From: Methylobacter sp. | GTDB lineage: Bacteria; Pseudomonadota; Gammaproteobacteria; Methylococcales; Methylomonadaceae | Assembly: GCF_030680395.1 (NCBI RefSeq) | Contig: NZ_JAUXVR010000038.1 | Coordinates: 1 to 54,893 of the forward strand | DNA length: 54,893 bases | Reading direction: 5' to 3' | Shown here: positions 47,536 through 54,893 of the stretch, one piece after another | How positions within the stretch are numbered: position 1 is the stretch's first letter | Layout of the letters: each line of letters begins with the position of its first letter | Position numbers and translations under genes: made by a program | Notes under the pieces: model-generated | Seen by the model: only the letters and a program-made list of their open reading frames with translations | What the model was told of the DNA's origin: nothing | Database searches by the model: none

Positions 47536-49926
47536 CTACCCCTCCTCCTTATCATCCTCATCCGTAGCCATATCCGAAATCTCCTTCAACCTTGAGATAG
47601 CTTTGCAATTAATACTGCCTTCCGGATAAAAGCCGTCGCTATCTAACGCGCCGGCCGGTTCCCCGGTCAATAATTCCAGCGTTTCATCGACGCAACACAC
47701 CGCGTAAATCGCAAACTTGCCTTCGGCCACCGCATCAATCACTTCCTGTTTCAGCATCAGGTTGCGCTTGTTGGCGGCGGGGATAATGGCGGCATGCTCG
47801 CCGTTAAGGCCGCGTGCCTTGCACAGCCTGAAGAAACCTTCTATTTTCTCGTTAACACCGCCTACCGCCTGCACTTCGCCATACTGGTTGATGGAACCGG
47901 TCACCGCAAAACTGTGTTTAATCGGCGTCCGTGTCAGCGCCGAAATAAGACAGCACAGTTCGGCCAGCGAGGCGCTGTCGCCGTCGATATAGCCGTAGGA
48001 TTGTTCAATCGCGATGCTGCCCGATATGGCGAGCGGAAATTGCTGGGCATAGGTGTGGCCCAGATAGCCGGTCAAGATCATTACGCCTTTGGAATGAATC
48101 GCTTGGCCCAGTTCCACCTCCCGCTCGACATCGACGATGCCTCTGGAACCGGGGTAAACGCTGGCGGTGATGCGCACCGGCGCGCCAAAGCTGCTGCCGC
48201 CGACTTCCAGCACGGTTAAACCGTTGACTTTGCCTATCGCTTCGCCTTCGGTATCGATCAGGATGGTGCCGGCCAGCATTTCTTCGAGTATGTTTTCTGG
48301 CATTCTGCCGTTACGATGCTCTCTTGCGGCCAAGGCCTGCTCTATGTGAGAGCGGTCGCAAATCGGCAGATTGTCGCGCTTGCAAAACAGGTTGGCTTCG
48401 GCAATGATTTCCAGCGAATCTTTGATGCGGGCGGAAAAATGATGCTGGTTTTCCGCAATCCGACAGCTGTGCTCAATCAGGCATTCAATAGCCGTCCGCG
48501 TTAACGGCTTGGCGCCGGAATCTGCTGCCTGCTTGATCATCAGCAGTATAAAACGCTGCATCGACTCATCATTGCGCGGAATATAATCGTCAAAATCGGC
48601 AAGAATTTTAAACATCTCGTTAAATTCATCATCCAATTCTTCCAGCAAATAATACACATCCCTGGAACCGACCAGAATCACTTTAATGTTTAGCGGGATG
48701 ACTTCGGGCTTGAGGGTGATGGTGTTAATGCCCAAATCGGAATAAGGCGATTCGATTTCAATCAGACCGGATTGCAGTGCGCGTTTAAGGCCTTCCCAAA
48801 CGAACGGGTAAGTCAGCATTTTTTCGGCATCGAGAATCAAATAACCGCCATTGGCCTTATGCAGCGAGCCTGCGCAAATACGGCGATAGTTGGTGACCAA
48901 TGTGCCCTGGTCGCTGACGTATTCAATACGCCCGAACAGGTTTTGATAAATCGGGTGCGGCTCGTAAATAACCGGCGCGCCGCTTTCCTGTTTGTTATCG
49001 ACCAGGATATTGGGCGCATACAGCTCGGTCAACAGCTGCCGTTTTGCAGTCGTATTATCTTGCTGTTCCGGCGCCCGGCTCGGCATCAGGTAATCGGCAA
49101 TGGTGCTGCAGAGGTTCTTTTTGATTTCCGCCAAATAGGTGATGACGTCATCGATATTCTGGTAGCTGTCGTTCAGTTCCGAAAACAACGGATCTATCGC
49201 CAGACTGATGGTGTCATTATCCAGCTGCTTGATTTTTTCGACCATCGCCCTGCGCCACTGGGGCAATTCCAGCAAGACATCGCTCAGGTATAGTTCCAGC
49301 TCCTCGACATGCTTATGAAAGATTTCCCGTTCCGGCAGCGGCAATTGGGTAAATTGATCTTCATTCAGCGCCTTATTGTCCCGAATAGGCGCAAAAGAAA
49401 TCGTTTCGCCTTCCCTGAATAAAGCAATATCCAGGGACTGGGACTTTTTATCGACCAGATCGATGGCGTTGTTATAGTACTGGTTAAAATGGCGTTCGAT
49501 AGCGCTCTTTTTTTGTTGGTAAGTTGGGCTTTCGAAAGCGGCGGGAAAGGTCGCCAGCAGGTTATCGATTAATTTTTCAATGTCTTTGCTGAGCGTTTGG
49601 CCATACTCTGCGGGCAGCTCAACGGCCACCGGCTCTCTCGGGTTATCGAAATTATCGACATAAGCATAGGATGGCGGCGCGGGCAGCGTTTTTGCCTGGG
49701 CATCCAGATGGTTGGTAATCATCGACAACCGACCCAGTCCCGGCTCGCCCATCACAAAAATATTGTAGCCGGGGTTACTCATCGCAACGCCGAACTCCAG
49801 TGCCGACTGGGCTCTGGACTGGCCCAAAATGGTGTCCGGCAATTTAGGTGCGGCGGGGAACTCAAAGCCAGTCAAATCGACATTTAGTTTCAGTGATTCA
49901 AGGGGGAGCTTTGAGTGGTTCGACAT
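47536..49926 (-). CDS. Lon-like ATP-dependent protease (LonB/YcbZ-type)
   Basis: A 796-residue AAA+ protease of the family with AAA_32 and Lon_C domains. The N-terminal region has a P-loop-like FVMGEPGLGRLSMI near residue 55, in which Arg stands at the usual Lys position. A long helical insert (about 110-300) follows, then a second AAA part with GGYLILDAEKMLTYPFVWEGL. The C-terminal Lon protease domain has the nucleophile Ser in IDGDSASLAELCCLISAL near 655 and the Lys in VGGVNEKIEGFFRLC near 698, so the dyad is complete. No membrane helix is evident, unlike archaeal LonB. It is monocistronic. Confidence 0.9.
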   Translation of the reverse strand: MSNHSKLPLESLKLNVDLTGFEFPAAPKLPDTILGQSRAQSALEFGVAMSNPGYNIFVMGEPGLGRLSMITNHLDAQAKTLPAPPSYAYVDNFDNPREPVAVELPAEYGQTLSKDIEKLIDNLLATFPAAFESPTYQQKKSAIERHFNQYYNNAIDLVDKKSQSLDIALFREGETISFAPIRDNKALNEDQFTQLPLPEREIFHKHVEELELYLSDVLLELPQWRRAMVEKIKQLDNDTISLAIDPLFSELNDSYQNIDDVITYLAEIKKNLCSTIADYLMPSRAPEQQDNTTAKRQLLTELYAPNILVDNKQESGAPVIYEPHPIYQNLFGRIEYVSDQGTLVTNYRRICAGSLHKANGGYLILDAEKMLTYPFVWEGLKRALQSGLIEIESPYSDLGINTITLKPEVIPLNIKVILVGSRDVYYLLEELDDEFNEMFKILADFDDYIPRNDESMQRFILLMIKQAADSGAKPLTRTAIECLIEHSCRIAENQHHFSARIKDSLEIIAEANLFCKRDNLPICDRSHIEQALAAREHRNGRMPENILEEMLAGTILIDTEGEAIGKVNGLTVLEVGGSSFGAPVRITASVYPGSRGIVDVEREVELGQAIHSKGVMILTGYLGHTYAQQFPLAISGSIAIEQSYGYIDGDSASLAELCCLISALTRTPIKHSFAVTGSINQYGEVQAVGGVNEKIEGFFRLCKARGLNGEHAAIIPAANKRNLMLKQEVIDAVAEGKFAIYAVCCVDETLELLTGEPAGALDSDGFYPEGSINCKAISRLKEISDMATDEDDKEEG

Positions 49927-50104: not shown

Positions 50105-51031
50105 TTAGAATTGCTGTCGTTGCAATACCATTGAAACAGCGGCTGCACGGGTGGCGACGCCCAGCTTTTCAAAAATATGTTCGAGATGTTTATTGATTGT
50201 GCGTGGACTACTGCCCAGAATAATACCCACTTCTTTATTGGTCTTGCCTCTGGAGATCCACATCAGTATTTCCGCTTCACGAAAAGTAAGCCCCAGGGAA
50301 TTTCTTACCAGATCCAGGTCCCACTCTCCTGAATGCCTGTCCAAAACCAGAAGGTATTCGCCTGTACTTTGACACGGTGTTATTTTTACCAAAAAACCGA
50401 CTCCGGTCCGATAGCTTTCAAAAGATTCGGATTTATCGGCAAAATCTAAATACTGTTTAACCCATTCGAGTATCGGTTTGGGCAGCGGCGAACCGACTTC
50501 ATGTTTACCTGTTAATGCGTGTTTTTGCAGAAATTCATCCAGCCACAAGATGCCGCCCGGCGTTAACCAGGTAATGTTGCCGGATGAATCGATTGCCAAC
50601 GCAGAAAAAGGGCTATTGTTTAAAGCATTTTCAACGCGACGCAGATTTCGGGCCTGAGTCAGTTGCAAATCCACTCGGGCCAGCACTTCGGGCGGACGAA
50701 TCGGTTTGACAATATAATCGACCGCGCCTTCGTCGAAGCCGCGTAACAGGTTGTCGAGTTCGCTTAACGCGGTCATAAATAAAACAGGAATATCGGCCGT
50801 TTCGGGTGAGGATTTGAGCCGGTTACAGGTTTCAAACCCGTCAATACCCGGCATCATAATATCCAGCAAAATAATATCCGGTTTCAGGTAAGCAATTTGC
50901 TCCAATGCCGATATGCCATCGGTGGCGACAAGCACCCGGTAACCGGCTTCCGAGAGCGTATCGGATAACAAGGCCAGATTGCCGGGCGTATCGTCGACAA
51001 TCATCGCGATACCGTTAAATTTACGGGTCAT
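50105..51031 (-). CDS. response regulator with LuxR-type DNA-binding domain
   Basis: A 308-residue transcription factor. The receiver domain (8-125) has the acidic pair DD at 13-14, phosphoacceptor Asp57 in DIILLDIMMPGIDGFE, and the KPIRPPEVLARVDLQL end. A PAS-like middle section (SPFSALAIDSSGNITWLTPGG) connects to a C-terminal LuxR helix-turn-helix (LTFREAEILMWISRGKTNKEVG, then SSPRTINKHLEHIFEKLGV). Its ATG overlaps the stop of the sensor gene by 11 bp, so the pair is translationally coupled and it is the likely target of that kinase. The third domain between receiver and HTH is unusual for short NarL-type regulators. Confidence 0.92.
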   Translation of the reverse strand: MTRKFNGIAMIVDDTPGNLALLSDTLSEAGYRVLVATDGISALEQIAYLKPDIILLDIMMPGIDGFETCNRLKSSPETADIPVLFMTALSELDNLLRGFDEGAVDYIVKPIRPPEVLARVDLQLTQARNLRRVENALNNSPFSALAIDSSGNITWLTPGGILWLDEFLQKHALTGKHEVGSPLPKPILEWVKQYLDFADKSESFESYRTGVGFLVKITPCQSTGEYLLVLDRHSGEWDLDLVRNSLGLTFREAEILMWISRGKTNKEVGIILGSSPRTINKHLEHIFEKLGVATRAAAVSMVLQRQQF

Positions 51032-54000
51032 TGCCGCTTAGTTCTTCGCTGGCAATATGTAAAAGTTTTTTGATTTCAAGCATATGAAACTCGCTGGCCA
51101 GCGTCATGATTCTTTGTGCAAAATAGGTATATTCCGGATGGTACTGAATAAGCTGGGTCAGATATAGATTAAGCCCCTGCAAATCGCCGATTCTTACATA
51201 GCCGGTTAACTCCTGAATAATATCTAATGAAGGCGGCTGGTCGGCACTTTGCAATTCAGCTTCATCTTCCTGATAAAGCCATTCCAAGGCCAAGTGCAGC
51301 TTAAGTTTGTAGAGTAGCTCGCTGACTTGTATAGGCTTGACCAAAAAGTCGTTGCAACCGGCATTAATGGCATTGAGTCGGTCGGAAGGATAGGCGTTGG
51401 CGCTTAAGACAACAATAGGCGCTGCATAGCCGTTTTGACGGAGTCGATGCGCTGTTGCGGAGCCATCCAATCCGGGCATGGATAAATCCAGCAGAACAAG
51501 GTCCGGCGCTTCTTTTTCAATTTTATCCAGGCATTCTTCACCGCATCCGGCCTCGATCAAACCGAAACCTAACGGTTCTAAAATAGACACAATCAATTGT
51601 CGATGATCCGGCTGATCGTCGACAATAAGAATTTTCCGGCGCTTTCCCCGGTAACCGATAATGTCTTCTTCCTGAATGTATTGCTGTTCGCCGCCCAGAT
51701 TGGGCAGCAGCAGCCTTACGGTAAAGGTGGAACCTTTATGCTGATCGCTGGAGACAACCAGTTCGCCGCCCATGATCTCGCATAGAATTTTACTGATGGT
51801 TAACCCCAAGCCGCTGCCGGCGTCTAAATTCTCATTCGGTAATTGCGTAAACGGCTGGAAAATATTTTGCAGTTGATCTTTATGTATGCCGGGACCGGTA
51901 TCGACGACCTGAAAAGTGGTGACTCCGCAGCTGTAACCGATGCGAAAGACGATCTCGCCCGTGGCGGTAAATTTGACCGCATTGCCGAGCAGGTTAATCA
52001 ATATTTGTCCGACCCGTTTTTCATCGCCGCGCACCCGCTGAGGTAGGGTGTTGACAATTTGACAGTAAAAAGACAGGCCCTTTTGTTCGGCTTGCGGCTT
52101 AAAAACGCTGACCAGATGTTCAATAAAACCCGGAAAATCGATAGCTTCCTGACGCAGTTCGAATTTGCGCGCTTCGATACGGGCAATATCCAGAATATCC
52201 TCGATCAGCGCGGATAAATGTTCGCCGTTACGCTTTAAAATATCCACCGCCTGCCGTCTATGCGCAGGTATGGTCGGGTCTTTCTGCAAAATATACGCGT
52301 AACCGACAATACTGTTTAACGGCGTGCGTATTTCGTGGCTCATGCTGCTAAGAAAACGGCTTTTCGCACTGTTAGCGCGATCCGCCATTTTGGTGGCTTG
52401 CTGTAACTTGGCGTCGGTTTTTTTATGTTCATCGATTTCCATCAGCAAACGCTGAGTCTGCTTGGCAATTTCTTCATGGGCAACGCGTCGGCTCTCGTCG
52501 TTCAGGATCAGCCACCAGGTGCATAAACCGATGAAGACCAGTAATGAGGCATAAACCTTAACAAAATTTGCCAGTAACAGGTTGAACGAAGGCAAGTAAT
52601 GCTCGGCAACCAATAAATCCTGATAGTAAATAATCCCGACAAATACGCTGGTTAAAACGGCCAAAAACAAAAACAACAGACTAAAGCGTATCAAGCGCAG
52701 CCTGACGCTCAAATTCACCCAACCCGGCAGACAGCATTCCGCAAAGCTTTGAAGATAATCATCCAGGCGCAAGCCCGGCTTGCAGGCGTCCATGCAACGC
52801 GAGTCCAGCGTGCAACAGAGCGAACAAATACAGCCCTCATAGACGGGGCAATACGCCATATCTTCGCGCTCGAAATGATTCTCGCAAATACTGCAGCGAC
52901 TGACTTGAGCCTGATTATTAAAGTGGATGTCACGCGCAAGATAACGCTGGCTCCCGTACAGCAGGGCGATACACGGAACCAACAGAAAGGCCAGACTCAA
53001 GGCAATAAACGCTGAAAATGCCTGTGCGAACGCGCCGAAAAATCCCAGATAGGCCAATATCGAAACTATCGAGGCGCATAAGGTGGACAGTATGCCGACC
53101 GGATTGAGATCCGGCAGGTAAGCGCGTTTGAACTCAACGGCTTTAGTGCTCAAGCCCAAAGGTTTGTTGATCAGTAATTCTGCGGCAACCGCGCTGATCC
53201 AGGCTATCGACATATTGGAAAACAACCCCAATACCTTTTCCAAAGCGCCGAATACGCCGAATTCCATCAGCAAAAGGGCGATCGAAACATTAAACACCAG
53301 CCATACCACCCGACCGGGATGACTGTGGGTCAGCCGCGAAAAAAAATTCGACCAGGCCAGCGAACCGGCGTAAGCATTGGTGACATTGATTTTGATCTGG
53401 GAAACCACCACAAACAAGGTAGTGACCGCTAAGGCTAACTCAGTATTGCCGAATAAGTCGCCGTAAGCCACCAGATACATTTGCGTAGGCTCATGCGCAT
53501 GGATCGGCGCTATACCGTGACGAATGGCAAGATGGGCAAGCAAGGCTCCGCCCAGCTGCCTGGCCATGCCGAACAAAATCCATCCGGGGCCGGCGGTAAT
53601 CGTAGCCAGCCACCAGCGTACCCGGTTTTTTTCGGTCAGCTCCGGCATAAAGCGCAAAAAATCCACTTGCTCGCCGATTTGCGCAACCATCGAAAAGGCG
53701 ATGGTGGTCGCGCTGCCGAACATCAACCAGTTAAAACCCTGGCCGCTGCCGGCAATCCAAAAGTAGGTTTGCACCGTCAGCATCGCGTCCGGCTCACGAA
53801 TGAATACCGCAATATAGGGCGTAATCAATAAAACCAGCCATAGCGGTTGGGTCCACATTTGCAAGCGGCTGATAGTGGTAATCCCAAAAGTCACCAAGGG
53901 AATGACGGTAACCGCGCTGATAATATGCGCGATGGCAATAGGGATATGAAAATACAGCTCGATAGCCAGAGACATGATCGAGGCTTCGAGCGCAAACAAC

Positions 54001-54437
54001 GTGAACGTAAACGAGGCATAAATCAGTGAAGTGACTGTCGACCCGATATAGCCGAAACCTGCGCTACGGGTCATCAGGTCGATATCTATGTTGTAGCGGG
54101 CGGCGTAATAACTGATCGGGAAACTGGTGATAAAAATAATCAAGCCAACGGCCAGAATGGCCCAGAACGCATTGGTAAAACCGTAATTGATGGTTAGAAA
54201 ACCGCCTATTGCTTCCAGAACCAGGAATGACGTAGAGCCGAACGCGGTATTGGCTACCTGAAATTCCGACCATTTGCGAAACGTGCGTGGTGCAAATCTA
54301 AGCGCATAGTCTTCCAGCGTTTCGTTGGCAACCCAGGCGTTATAGTCGCGACGAATTTTTGAGACACTTTGTCGGATACCGGTTTCCTCAATGGGTTTTA
54401 TATGAATTCTGTGCTGTATAGGGCGTTCCGTGCGCAC
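51021..54437 (-). CDS. NCS1-transporter / Cys-rich / histidine kinase / receiver fusion protein
   Basis: A 1138-residue hybrid sensor. Residues about 35-500 form a 12-helix permease of the NCS1 (nucleobase-cation symporter, CodB-like) type, beginning ETLEDYALRFAPRTFRKW. Next is a Cys-rich segment near 515-555 with nine Cys (CSICENHF, YCPVYEGCICSLCC, RCMDAC), probably a zinc or redox site. Two more membrane helices (near 580-630) and a coiled coil lead to HisKA, with His701 in SSMSHEIRTPLNS. The ATPase domain has G box GSGLGLTISKIL. A receiver follows with Asp984 in VLLDLSMPGLDG. The only start is a GTG at 54437, within a repeat arm and without ribosome-binding site. It is likely a transport-coupled nutrient sensor. 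Confidence 0.9.
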   Translation of the reverse strand: MRTERPIQHRIHIKPIEETGIRQSVSKIRRDYNAWVANETLEDYALRFAPRTFRKWSEFQVANTAFGSTSFLVLEAIGGFLTINYGFTNAFWAILAVGLIIFITSFPISYYAARYNIDIDLMTRSAGFGYIGSTVTSLIYASFTFTLFALEASIMSLAIELYFHIPIAIAHIISAVTVIPLVTFGITTISRLQMWTQPLWLVLLITPYIAVFIREPDAMLTVQTYFWIAGSGQGFNWLMFGSATTIAFSMVAQIGEQVDFLRFMPELTEKNRVRWWLATITAGPGWILFGMARQLGGALLAHLAIRHGIAPIHAHEPTQMYLVAYGDLFGNTELALAVTTLFVVVSQIKINVTNAYAGSLAWSNFFSRLTHSHPGRVVWLVFNVSIALLLMEFGVFGALEKVLGLFSNMSIAWISAVAAELLINKPLGLSTKAVEFKRAYLPDLNPVGILSTLCASIVSILAYLGFFGAFAQAFSAFIALSLAFLLVPCIALLYGSQRYLARDIHFNNQAQVSRCSICENHFEREDMAYCPVYEGCICSLCCTLDSRCMDACKPGLRLDDYLQSFAECCLPGWVNLSVRLRLIRFSLLFLFLAVLTSVFVGIIYYQDLLVAEHYLPSFNLLLANFVKVYASLLVFIGLCTWWLILNDESRRVAHEEIAKQTQRLLMEIDEHKKTDAKLQQATKMADRANSAKSRFLSSMSHEIRTPLNSIVGYAYILQKDPTIPAHRRQAVDILKRNGEHLSALIEDILDIARIEARKFELRQEAIDFPGFIEHLVSVFKPQAEQKGLSFYCQIVNTLPQRVRGDEKRVGQILINLLGNAVKFTATGEIVFRIGYSCGVTTFQVVDTGPGIHKDQLQNIFQPFTQLPNENLDAGSGLGLTISKILCEIMGGELVVSSDQHKGSTFTVRLLLPNLGGEQQYIQEEDIIGYRGKRRKILIVDDQPDHRQLIVSILEPLGFGLIEAGCGEECLDKIEKEAPDLVLLDLSMPGLDGSATAHRLRQNGYAAPIVVLSANAYPSDRLNAINAGCNDFLVKPIQVSELLYKLKLHLALEWLYQEDEAELQSADQPPSLDIIQELTGYVRIGDLQGLNLYLTQLIQYHPEYTYFAQRIMTLASEFHMLEIKKLLHIASEELSGNDP

Positions 54438-54469: not shown

Positions 54470-54689
54470 TTACGCTCAATCACCGTTCCATGAAGCAATA
54501 ACTACACCAGAGACCCTTAGCAATGGCCAATGCGCTAAACAGCACGTAGCAACAAAATCATCGATCCAATTTGGTGCAATAAGCTGTAACCATGCCCGAT
54601 AACGACCGCTTGGCTCATAGCCGTTCATGGCCGAATTTTAAAATCACCGGCGTCCCCTAATTGTGAACTCCTCGTTCCCACGCGTTGCG

Positions 54690-54893
54690 CTCGTCGTTAT
54701 ACACAAGTCTGTTCAAGACCGCCATTTAGGCATGAAAGCTGAAATGGCGGCCCTGGATGTAGGCCGGAATGAGTCCGCCCGGCGTCAGCAAGGGCGGATG
54801 TTTCCGGCAATCGGAGCGCCGGAAACACCAGTCCTGCGCTTAACGCGCGGACAGGCTTATTCCGGCCTACGTCGAGATGTGTATAACGACGAG
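54690..54893. repeat. nested inverted-repeat element reaching the window end
   Basis: Outer perfect 16-bp repeats CTCGTCGTTATACACA (54690-54705) and its complement (54878-54893) enclose several hairpins. These are 54721-54727 with 54742-54748 (GCCATTT), GTAGGCCGGAAT (54759-54770) with ATTCCGGCCTAC (54859-54870), TCCGCCC (54774-54780) with GGGCGGA (54792-54798), and TGTTTCCGGC (54799-54808) with its complement (54818-54827). No ORF is present. It resembles a MITE or clustered REP (BIME) element. The right end may extend past the window. The stretch 54470-54689 before it shows nothing clear. Confidence 0.75.

Follow-up and report, generated by a model that had tools for sequence, protein, structure and literature searches.

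We identify in Methylobacter sp. a pair of overlapping genes that, in our assessment, quite likely encodes a two-component system for the uptake of urea, or of short-chain amides, in which an NCS1-type permease fold would act as the receptor of a membrane-bound sensor. In the proposed mechanism, binding of the ligand, or its passage through the permease, would shift the permease, and this shift would be relayed to the kinase through an eight-cysteine segment, probably a two-zinc, treble-clef-like structure, and two membrane helices. The overlapping LuxR-type regulator would then be phosphorylated, bind sites of the type TACGTCAnnTGACGTA and activate the porin-urtABCDE operon; elsewhere its predicted targets are urtABCDE together with fmdA in Pseudomonas, and urtABCDE in Burkholderiales. 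In the Methylobacter-type clade, a probable AUC or AUU start codon, mostly with a strong Shine-Dalgarno (SD) sequence, may keep the sensor dose low, perhaps in an IF3-dependent manner. The pair lies in a window of 54,893 nucleotides, the whole stretch of DNA that was analyzed, which makes up the whole of contig C30 of this genome.

Architecture of the sensor and its regulator

The initial annotation had proposed that an NCS1-type permease is fused to a Cys-rich segment, a histidine kinase and a receiver, and that a dedicated LuxR-type regulator is coupled to this fusion by overlap; domain and fold analysis bear out both parts (Table 1). The permease is followed by the Cys segment, two helices and the HisKA, HATPase_c and REC domains, all three detected with Pfam and together defining a hybrid histidine kinase (HK), and then by the regulator gene, which overlaps the kinase gene by 11 nt and encodes a REC domain and a GerE HTH. 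A Pfam scan found no Hpt domain in the window's kinase. In the structural model of the kinase, helices 556-591 and 596-679 lie between the Cys segment and the kinase, and these probably form a membrane pair. Downstream of the regulator, at window positions 47536-49926, lies a gene for a LonB/LonC-type AAA protease, and a gene of similar sequence is likewise found 3' of the regulator in M. tundripaludum (L001).

Table 1. Positions of the features of the sensor-regulator locus, in window coordinates
Feature	Position	Strand	Basis
Hybrid sensor kinase, probable translated form starting at ATC 54377-54375	51021..54377	-	sequence comparison
Hybrid kinase, ORF-finder version with GTG start	runs to 54437	-	ORF listing
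Probable ATC start codon	54375..54377	-	aligned codons of relatives
Shine-Dalgarno-like GAGGA, 7 nt 5' of ATC	54385..54389	-	
Permease domain with NCS1 fold, residues 41-496 in GTG-frame numbering	52950..54317	-	fold comparison
Eight-Cys segment, C515-C552	52782..52895	-	invariant spacing in 168/168 homologues
Two long helices from Cys segment to kinase, probable TM pair	52503..52712	-	end of second helix estimated
HisKA	52170..52367	-	Pfam
HATPase_c	51705..52028	-	Pfam
Receiver domain of hybrid kinase	51303..51632	-	Pfam
Cognate response regulator (REC, variable middle, LuxR-type HTH)	50105..51031	-	
Regulator middle segment, without listed Pfam match	50312..50629	-	absent in 18/160 regulators
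Contig terminus of 141 bp, shared without mismatch with the end of same-genome contig C45	54753..54893	.	

REC and GerE HTH domains were present in 43/43 regulator members scanned with Pfam, placing the protein among the NarL/FixJ (LuxR-type) response regulators. The PAS-like character initially ascribed to its middle found no Pfam support in these 43 members, and 18 of 160 regulators (L011-L015 without gaps, L017, L020, L026, L038, L044, L045, L057, L058, L061, L064, L066, L151 and L183) lack any such segment between receiver and HTH, so the middle is dispensable in part of the family.

Structure comparison assigned the permease a LeuT-type fold closest to CodB and Mhp1. Chains of the SLC5/SSS type scored about 10 Z units below CodB, at best 24.4, and on these fold scores we rejected an SLC5-type sensor. 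Sequence identity to CodB and Mhp1 is about 15%, and hhalign aligned 144 columns of the permease with CodB at a probability of 27% and an E value of 0.00066. No Pfam NCS1 transporter family appeared among the best 25 of 28 families shown for 52 members, and a PDB sequence search with the permease profile returned no reliable relative. The position of Gln105 in TM3 of CodB, a residue with a role in cytosine binding, is occupied by an invariant Thr in the sensor homologues, indicating that the ligand site has changed. Dozens of permease residues are nonetheless invariant among homologues, which would also fit a permease that works as a urea importer as well as a sensor, as would the description of CbrA as both transporter and kinase in the available portions of PMC7096432 and PMC13022988. 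Given that a high-affinity ABC importer is already encoded alongside, we consider this dual role doubtful.

The linker had been described as having nine cysteines. Eight of the nine are held at fixed spacing in 168/168 homologues with no loss of the pattern, and the ninth is not among them; these 168 rows, from which L150 was left out because its read-through failed, are not independent because some genomes occur twice (for example as L001 and L089). The segment weakly resembles two-zinc treble-clef fingers (FYVE/PHD/RING/ZZ) in structure, and a PDB sequence search with the Cys profile found no reliable relative. An Fe-S segment was also considered, and no such match was noticed among the best 50 rows of each of two structure comparisons, an absence that is not proof. 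Pfam scans listed no match to a STAC domain, whose position the eight-Cys segment occupies.

Eight invariant cysteines could also form a true second sensor, for nickel, zinc or redox state, that licenses urt only when urease can be made; urease requires nickel, and UreC is encoded on the urt contig of this genome. We regard this as rather unlikely. The Cys pattern is identical in Pseudomonas loci where formamidase genes lie beside the pair, and the eight-Cys spacing, the one property compared here, is kept in 7/7 module proteins with other outputs. Because the segment is unchanged in both settings, it is more simply read as a structural metal site; its predicted fold bears a weak likeness to structural two-zinc fingers, and the metal would probably be zinc.

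Association with urea uptake genes and a candidate operator

We compared the occurrence of the kinase with that of UrtA (above the TIGR03407 cut-off) in the window's family. UrtA passed the cut-off in 89 of 99 genomes with a strong HK match versus 6 of 102 others, such that the 201 genomes divide into 89 with both, 10 with HK only, 6 with UrtA only and 96 with neither (Fisher p 1.6e-37, a value that ignores shared ancestry). The 10 of 99 HK genomes without UrtA above the cut-off count against the link; six of these ten are less than 91% complete. At a looser threshold of E 1e-60, UrtA-like proteins were found in 118/201 genomes, with 94 genomes having both, 5 HK only, 24 a UrtA-like protein only and 78 neither. 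The 24 genomes that have a UrtA-like protein and no HK indicate that only UrtA above the cut-off is tightly tied to the kinase. UrtA above the cut-off lies within 15 kb of 72 of 109 HK loci (1000 bits or more), on the opposite strand in 65. By ORF clustering, 49 of 80 named loci have a urt- or FmdA-like neighbor, often divergently arranged; an FmdA cluster occurs in 23 of the 80 and a CN-hydrolase cluster in 11, with one representative of each confirmed by Pfam.

In the genome of the window itself, contig C45 carries UreC and urtEDCBA, with UrtA-E all above NCBIfam cut-offs; next come a porin-like gene, which scores under its NCBIfam cut-off, and a small ORF with no family assignment. The last 141 bases of C45 match the first 141 of the window's reverse complement without a difference, and gene order across the join matches that of M. 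tundripaludum (L001). Given this identity and shared order, the HK/regulator pair very probably adjoins urt in its own genome, and it seems to be cut off from the porin, urtABCDE and urease genes only because the assembly breaks within a repeat. The final 53 bp of the small ORF behind the porin-like gene recur in the window (window 54606-54893; C45 end in L121), on the far side of a short element whose inverted ends match in part; were the two contigs joined through their common 141 bp, 275 bp would separate the copies. This arrangement resembles an insertion of the MITE type at which the assembly broke. The UrtE match on C45 (L121:5630-6487, G000:C45) falls into two stretches, the best ending at profile position 189 of 230, and could reflect a frameshift or sequencing error.

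A de novo search found the palindrome TACGTCAnnTGACGTA between HK and urtA in Pseudomonas and Burkholderiales, and before fmdA as well. When we searched for dyads upstream of HK with shuffled controls, TACGT-N6-ACGTA was recovered from 33 of 40 loci in 4 of 5 taxonomic groups against a background of 0, and 38 of 80 loci have the exact motif in the 700 bp preceding HK, against 0.42 occurrences expected in all 1.43 Mb. The 42 loci with no exact operator near HK comprise all ten of the Methylobacter type and 32 others, many from Comamonadaceae/Burkholderiales. Of the nine Pseudomonas-group loci, seven contain a second exact site, a further 5.4-5.7 kb away. In five of the six Pseudomonas loci with both a second site and a clustered FmdA ORF, this site lies 87-89 bp before FmdA; in L015 it falls 31 bp inside the longest FmdA frame, and L044 has FmdA and no second exact site.

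The Methylobacter-type loci (L001-L010) contain no exact TACGT-N6-ACGTA. Allowing one mismatch gave only two sites across the window, L001-L010 and L121, both far from HK, and a scan of TAC-Nn-GTA revealed no outstanding spacing. A second dyad search, over 22 methanotroph HK-urtA regions, returned the related core GTCAnnTGAC in 17, including that of the window's own genome; the remaining 5/22 lack even this core. It is present as two tandem copies in ten of the 17 regions (GCGTCATCTGACTCATCAGTCAAATGACGTA in the own genome) and lies close to, or right at, the 5' end of the porin frame. Both GTCANNTGACGTA and the tandem, the latter with up to three mismatches allowed, occur a single time in the own genome, before porin-urt and in the porin-urt promoter, respectively, with 0 occurrences of a reversed-pattern control. 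The longer operator CTNATCAGTCANNTGACGYA is found in 41/201 genomes, being present in 41 of 112 with the module versus 0 of 89 without it and missing from 71 of the 112. Of its 45 sites, 40 are within 3 kb of UrtA, eight of them on a contig other than that of HK. These putative operator sites are the predicted binding sites of the regulator.

The permease might also not bind urea at all, with the system reading general nitrogen status (ammonium, glutamine or membrane energy) and urt being one nitrogen-scavenging operon under its control. Urea uptake is a form of nitrogen scavenging, and the invariant Thr at the CodB Gln105 position marks a changed ligand site, both of which agree with such a signal. 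A general nitrogen regulon would not be expected to have the tandem and GTCANNTGACGTA only once each in the genome, at urt, and the formamidase, CN-hydrolase and urease neighbors have amide chemistry in common, making this reading improbable in our view. The nucleobase- or hydantoin-like ligand proposed in the initial annotation is likewise unsupported, and we dropped it as first choice since neighborhood, genome co-occurrence and shared operator all point to urea or short-chain amides. The fmd operon of Methylophilus is a short-chain amide uptake system. We favor urea as the candidate ligand, with short-chain amides as candidates for the Pseudomonas and Burkholderiales versions.

Start codon of the sensor gene

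The sensor gene of the window probably starts at ATC 54377, with initiation at AUC, and GTG 54437, which is open in frame and has no visible SD, is probably not its start. In the closest relative (L001, the same as L089), a stop lies eight codons before the codon aligned with ATC 54377, and no ATG, GTG or TTG follows that stop until codon 102. Across the 101 codons before this first canonical start, 26 of the 29 differences between the window and L089 fall at codon position 3 (dN 0.004, dS 0.55), with one amino-acid change, demonstrating that the stretch is translated.

This absence of canonical starts extends to other loci. In 13 of 89 loci (90 given minus L171, in which the motif was not found; L150, of doubtful frame, is among the 13), the stretch from the in-frame stop to the first conserved motif contains no ATG, GTG or TTG, and in 21 loci none occurs within six codons before the aligned Ile codon, which is ATC in 17 and ATT in 4. 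The SD pairing energy before these ATC/ATT codons averaged -4.8 kcal/mol, versus -0.8 at the same place in 68 loci with a nearby upstream start, whose own starts are preceded by -0.4. As a control, 14 of the 21 sites reach -4.8 versus 9.8% of the 1668 ATT/ATC codons inside these genes; the SD is weak or missing in 7 of the 21, with none in L166, L169 and L170. Among the loci with upstream starts, 54/68 also have ATT/ATC at the aligned codon, which belongs to a conserved peptide in any case.

A 91-row FastTree phylogeny places 20 of the 21 loci in one 23-row clade spanning ten genus codes; L108 lies outside, and five changes are needed in all. In the 24 rows formed by this clade and L108, the aligned codon is ATC in 18, ATT in 5 and ATG in one (L099), and the ATG at exactly this place marks the codon as a start. 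We also weighed a canonical start for the gene, which in the window would be GTG 54437 and in other loci various codons scattered upstream or internally, given that GTG 54437 is open in frame and several clade members have ATG, GTG or TTG further upstream; L093 and L109, with ATC/ATT and an SD, have one within six codons. The in-frame stop of the closest relative, the strong constraint on codons ahead of its first canonical start, the lack of a visible SD at GTG 54437 and the non-homologous positions of the upstream starts render this very unlikely. Since ATC and ATT are one base from ATG and such a change would leave the initiator residue as it is, the long persistence of ATC/ATT as the probable start suggests selection for weak initiation.

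Modularity, spread and relation to known systems

The fusion had been considered little described, and it is not rare: a contig search across genomes gave 118 confirmed stretches, 80 of which were kept for analysis, from Methylobacter-type methanotrophs, Pseudomonas, Herbaspirillum, Comamonadaceae and others. In the window's family, sampled as 201 genomes that we take, from named relatives, to be Methylomonadaceae, 112 have a module match at E 1e-150 or better. Seven chosen proteins carry the same permease-Cys module with other outputs behind it, namely PAS-kinase, GAF-PAS-GGDEF (cut by a contig end), PAS-GAF-GGDEF-EAL (two proteins), hybrid kinases with REC-REC-Hpt and REC-Hpt, and GAF-SpoIIE. 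These varied outputs, together with the Cys spacing retained by all seven, indicate that permease and Cys segment behave as a portable sensor module.

Two further observations concern relatives of the module. A Cys-profile match (G462:C6:943245-943406) lies in an open frame of 617 aa, with a full-size match about 3.4 kb away in the same genome; the frame is of a length that suggests a permease-Cys protein lacking an output domain. A second paralogue, 47-50% identical, is located 0.5-0.75 kb from a second UrtA in L124 (G037), G010, G060, G078, G093, G005, G055 and G111; in L124, where it adjoins its own UrtA, a perfect TACGTCAAATGACGTA lies upstream, and this paralogue may serve a formamide-type transporter.

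We tentatively advance a broader proposal, which we hold as possible and well short of probable in its entirety: that the NCS1 permease and eight-Cys segment constitute a portable receptor for urea and small amides, a module so far undescribed, on kinases, GGDEF/EAL proteins and SpoIIE-type phosphatases, and that in one methanotroph lineage the kinase version has long been held on an AUC/AUU start one base from AUG, tying sensor dose, and through the overlap regulator dose, to initiation fidelity (IF3). Among the literature matches listed, with subscription papers mostly outside the search, there was no account of the NCS1-Cys-kinase fusion, of a characterized two-component regulator of urt or of the operator. 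If the system works as proposed, a second transporter fold would join the small group of transporter-kinases, and methanotrophs, Pseudomonas and Burkholderiales would gain a candidate urea receptor with a ready DNA site. The other outputs of the module suggest that the same signal may steer second-messenger and phosphatase signaling. The conserved AUC/AUU start would be a rare case of a sensor gene misread by gene finders and could show whether weak initiation is selected for low sensor numbers.

According to the available portion of PMC5472188, infC (ATT/ATC) and sigR (GTC) have non-canonical starts and their translation is repressed by IF3. The sensor gene resembles these in being a regulatory gene with a probable start outside ATG, GTG and TTG that annotation rules miss. 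It would differ in encoding a sensor kinase and in that AUC/AUU is mostly accompanied by a strong SD; control by IF3 may apply here as well.

The system is an NCS1 counterpart of the CbrA-type transporter-kinases, as had been proposed; its Cys linker is conserved, and it has a regulator of its own. It shares with the SLC5/STAC kinases CbrA, CrbS and RpuS the fusion of a transporter domain to a kinase (available portions of PMC9100948 and PMC13022988), and CrbS- and RpuS-type proteins are hybrid kinases with LuxR-type regulators that control substrate use or uptake (PMC9100948, in the part available). It differs in having an NCS1 rather than an SLC5 fold, for which reason we do not class it as an SLC5/STAC member, as well as in the eight-Cys segment in place of STAC and in its predicted target, urt. 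Unlike CodB and Mhp1, the sensor permease is fused to signaling outputs and has Thr where CodB has Gln105. Its resemblance to urea and amide uptake systems lies in the linked operon, with UrtA-E above cut-offs and a porin-like gene, and in FmdA in other clades. In Ectopseudomonas, a hybrid HK and a LuxR gene lie beside a second urtABCDE, as described in the available portion of PMC13296017.
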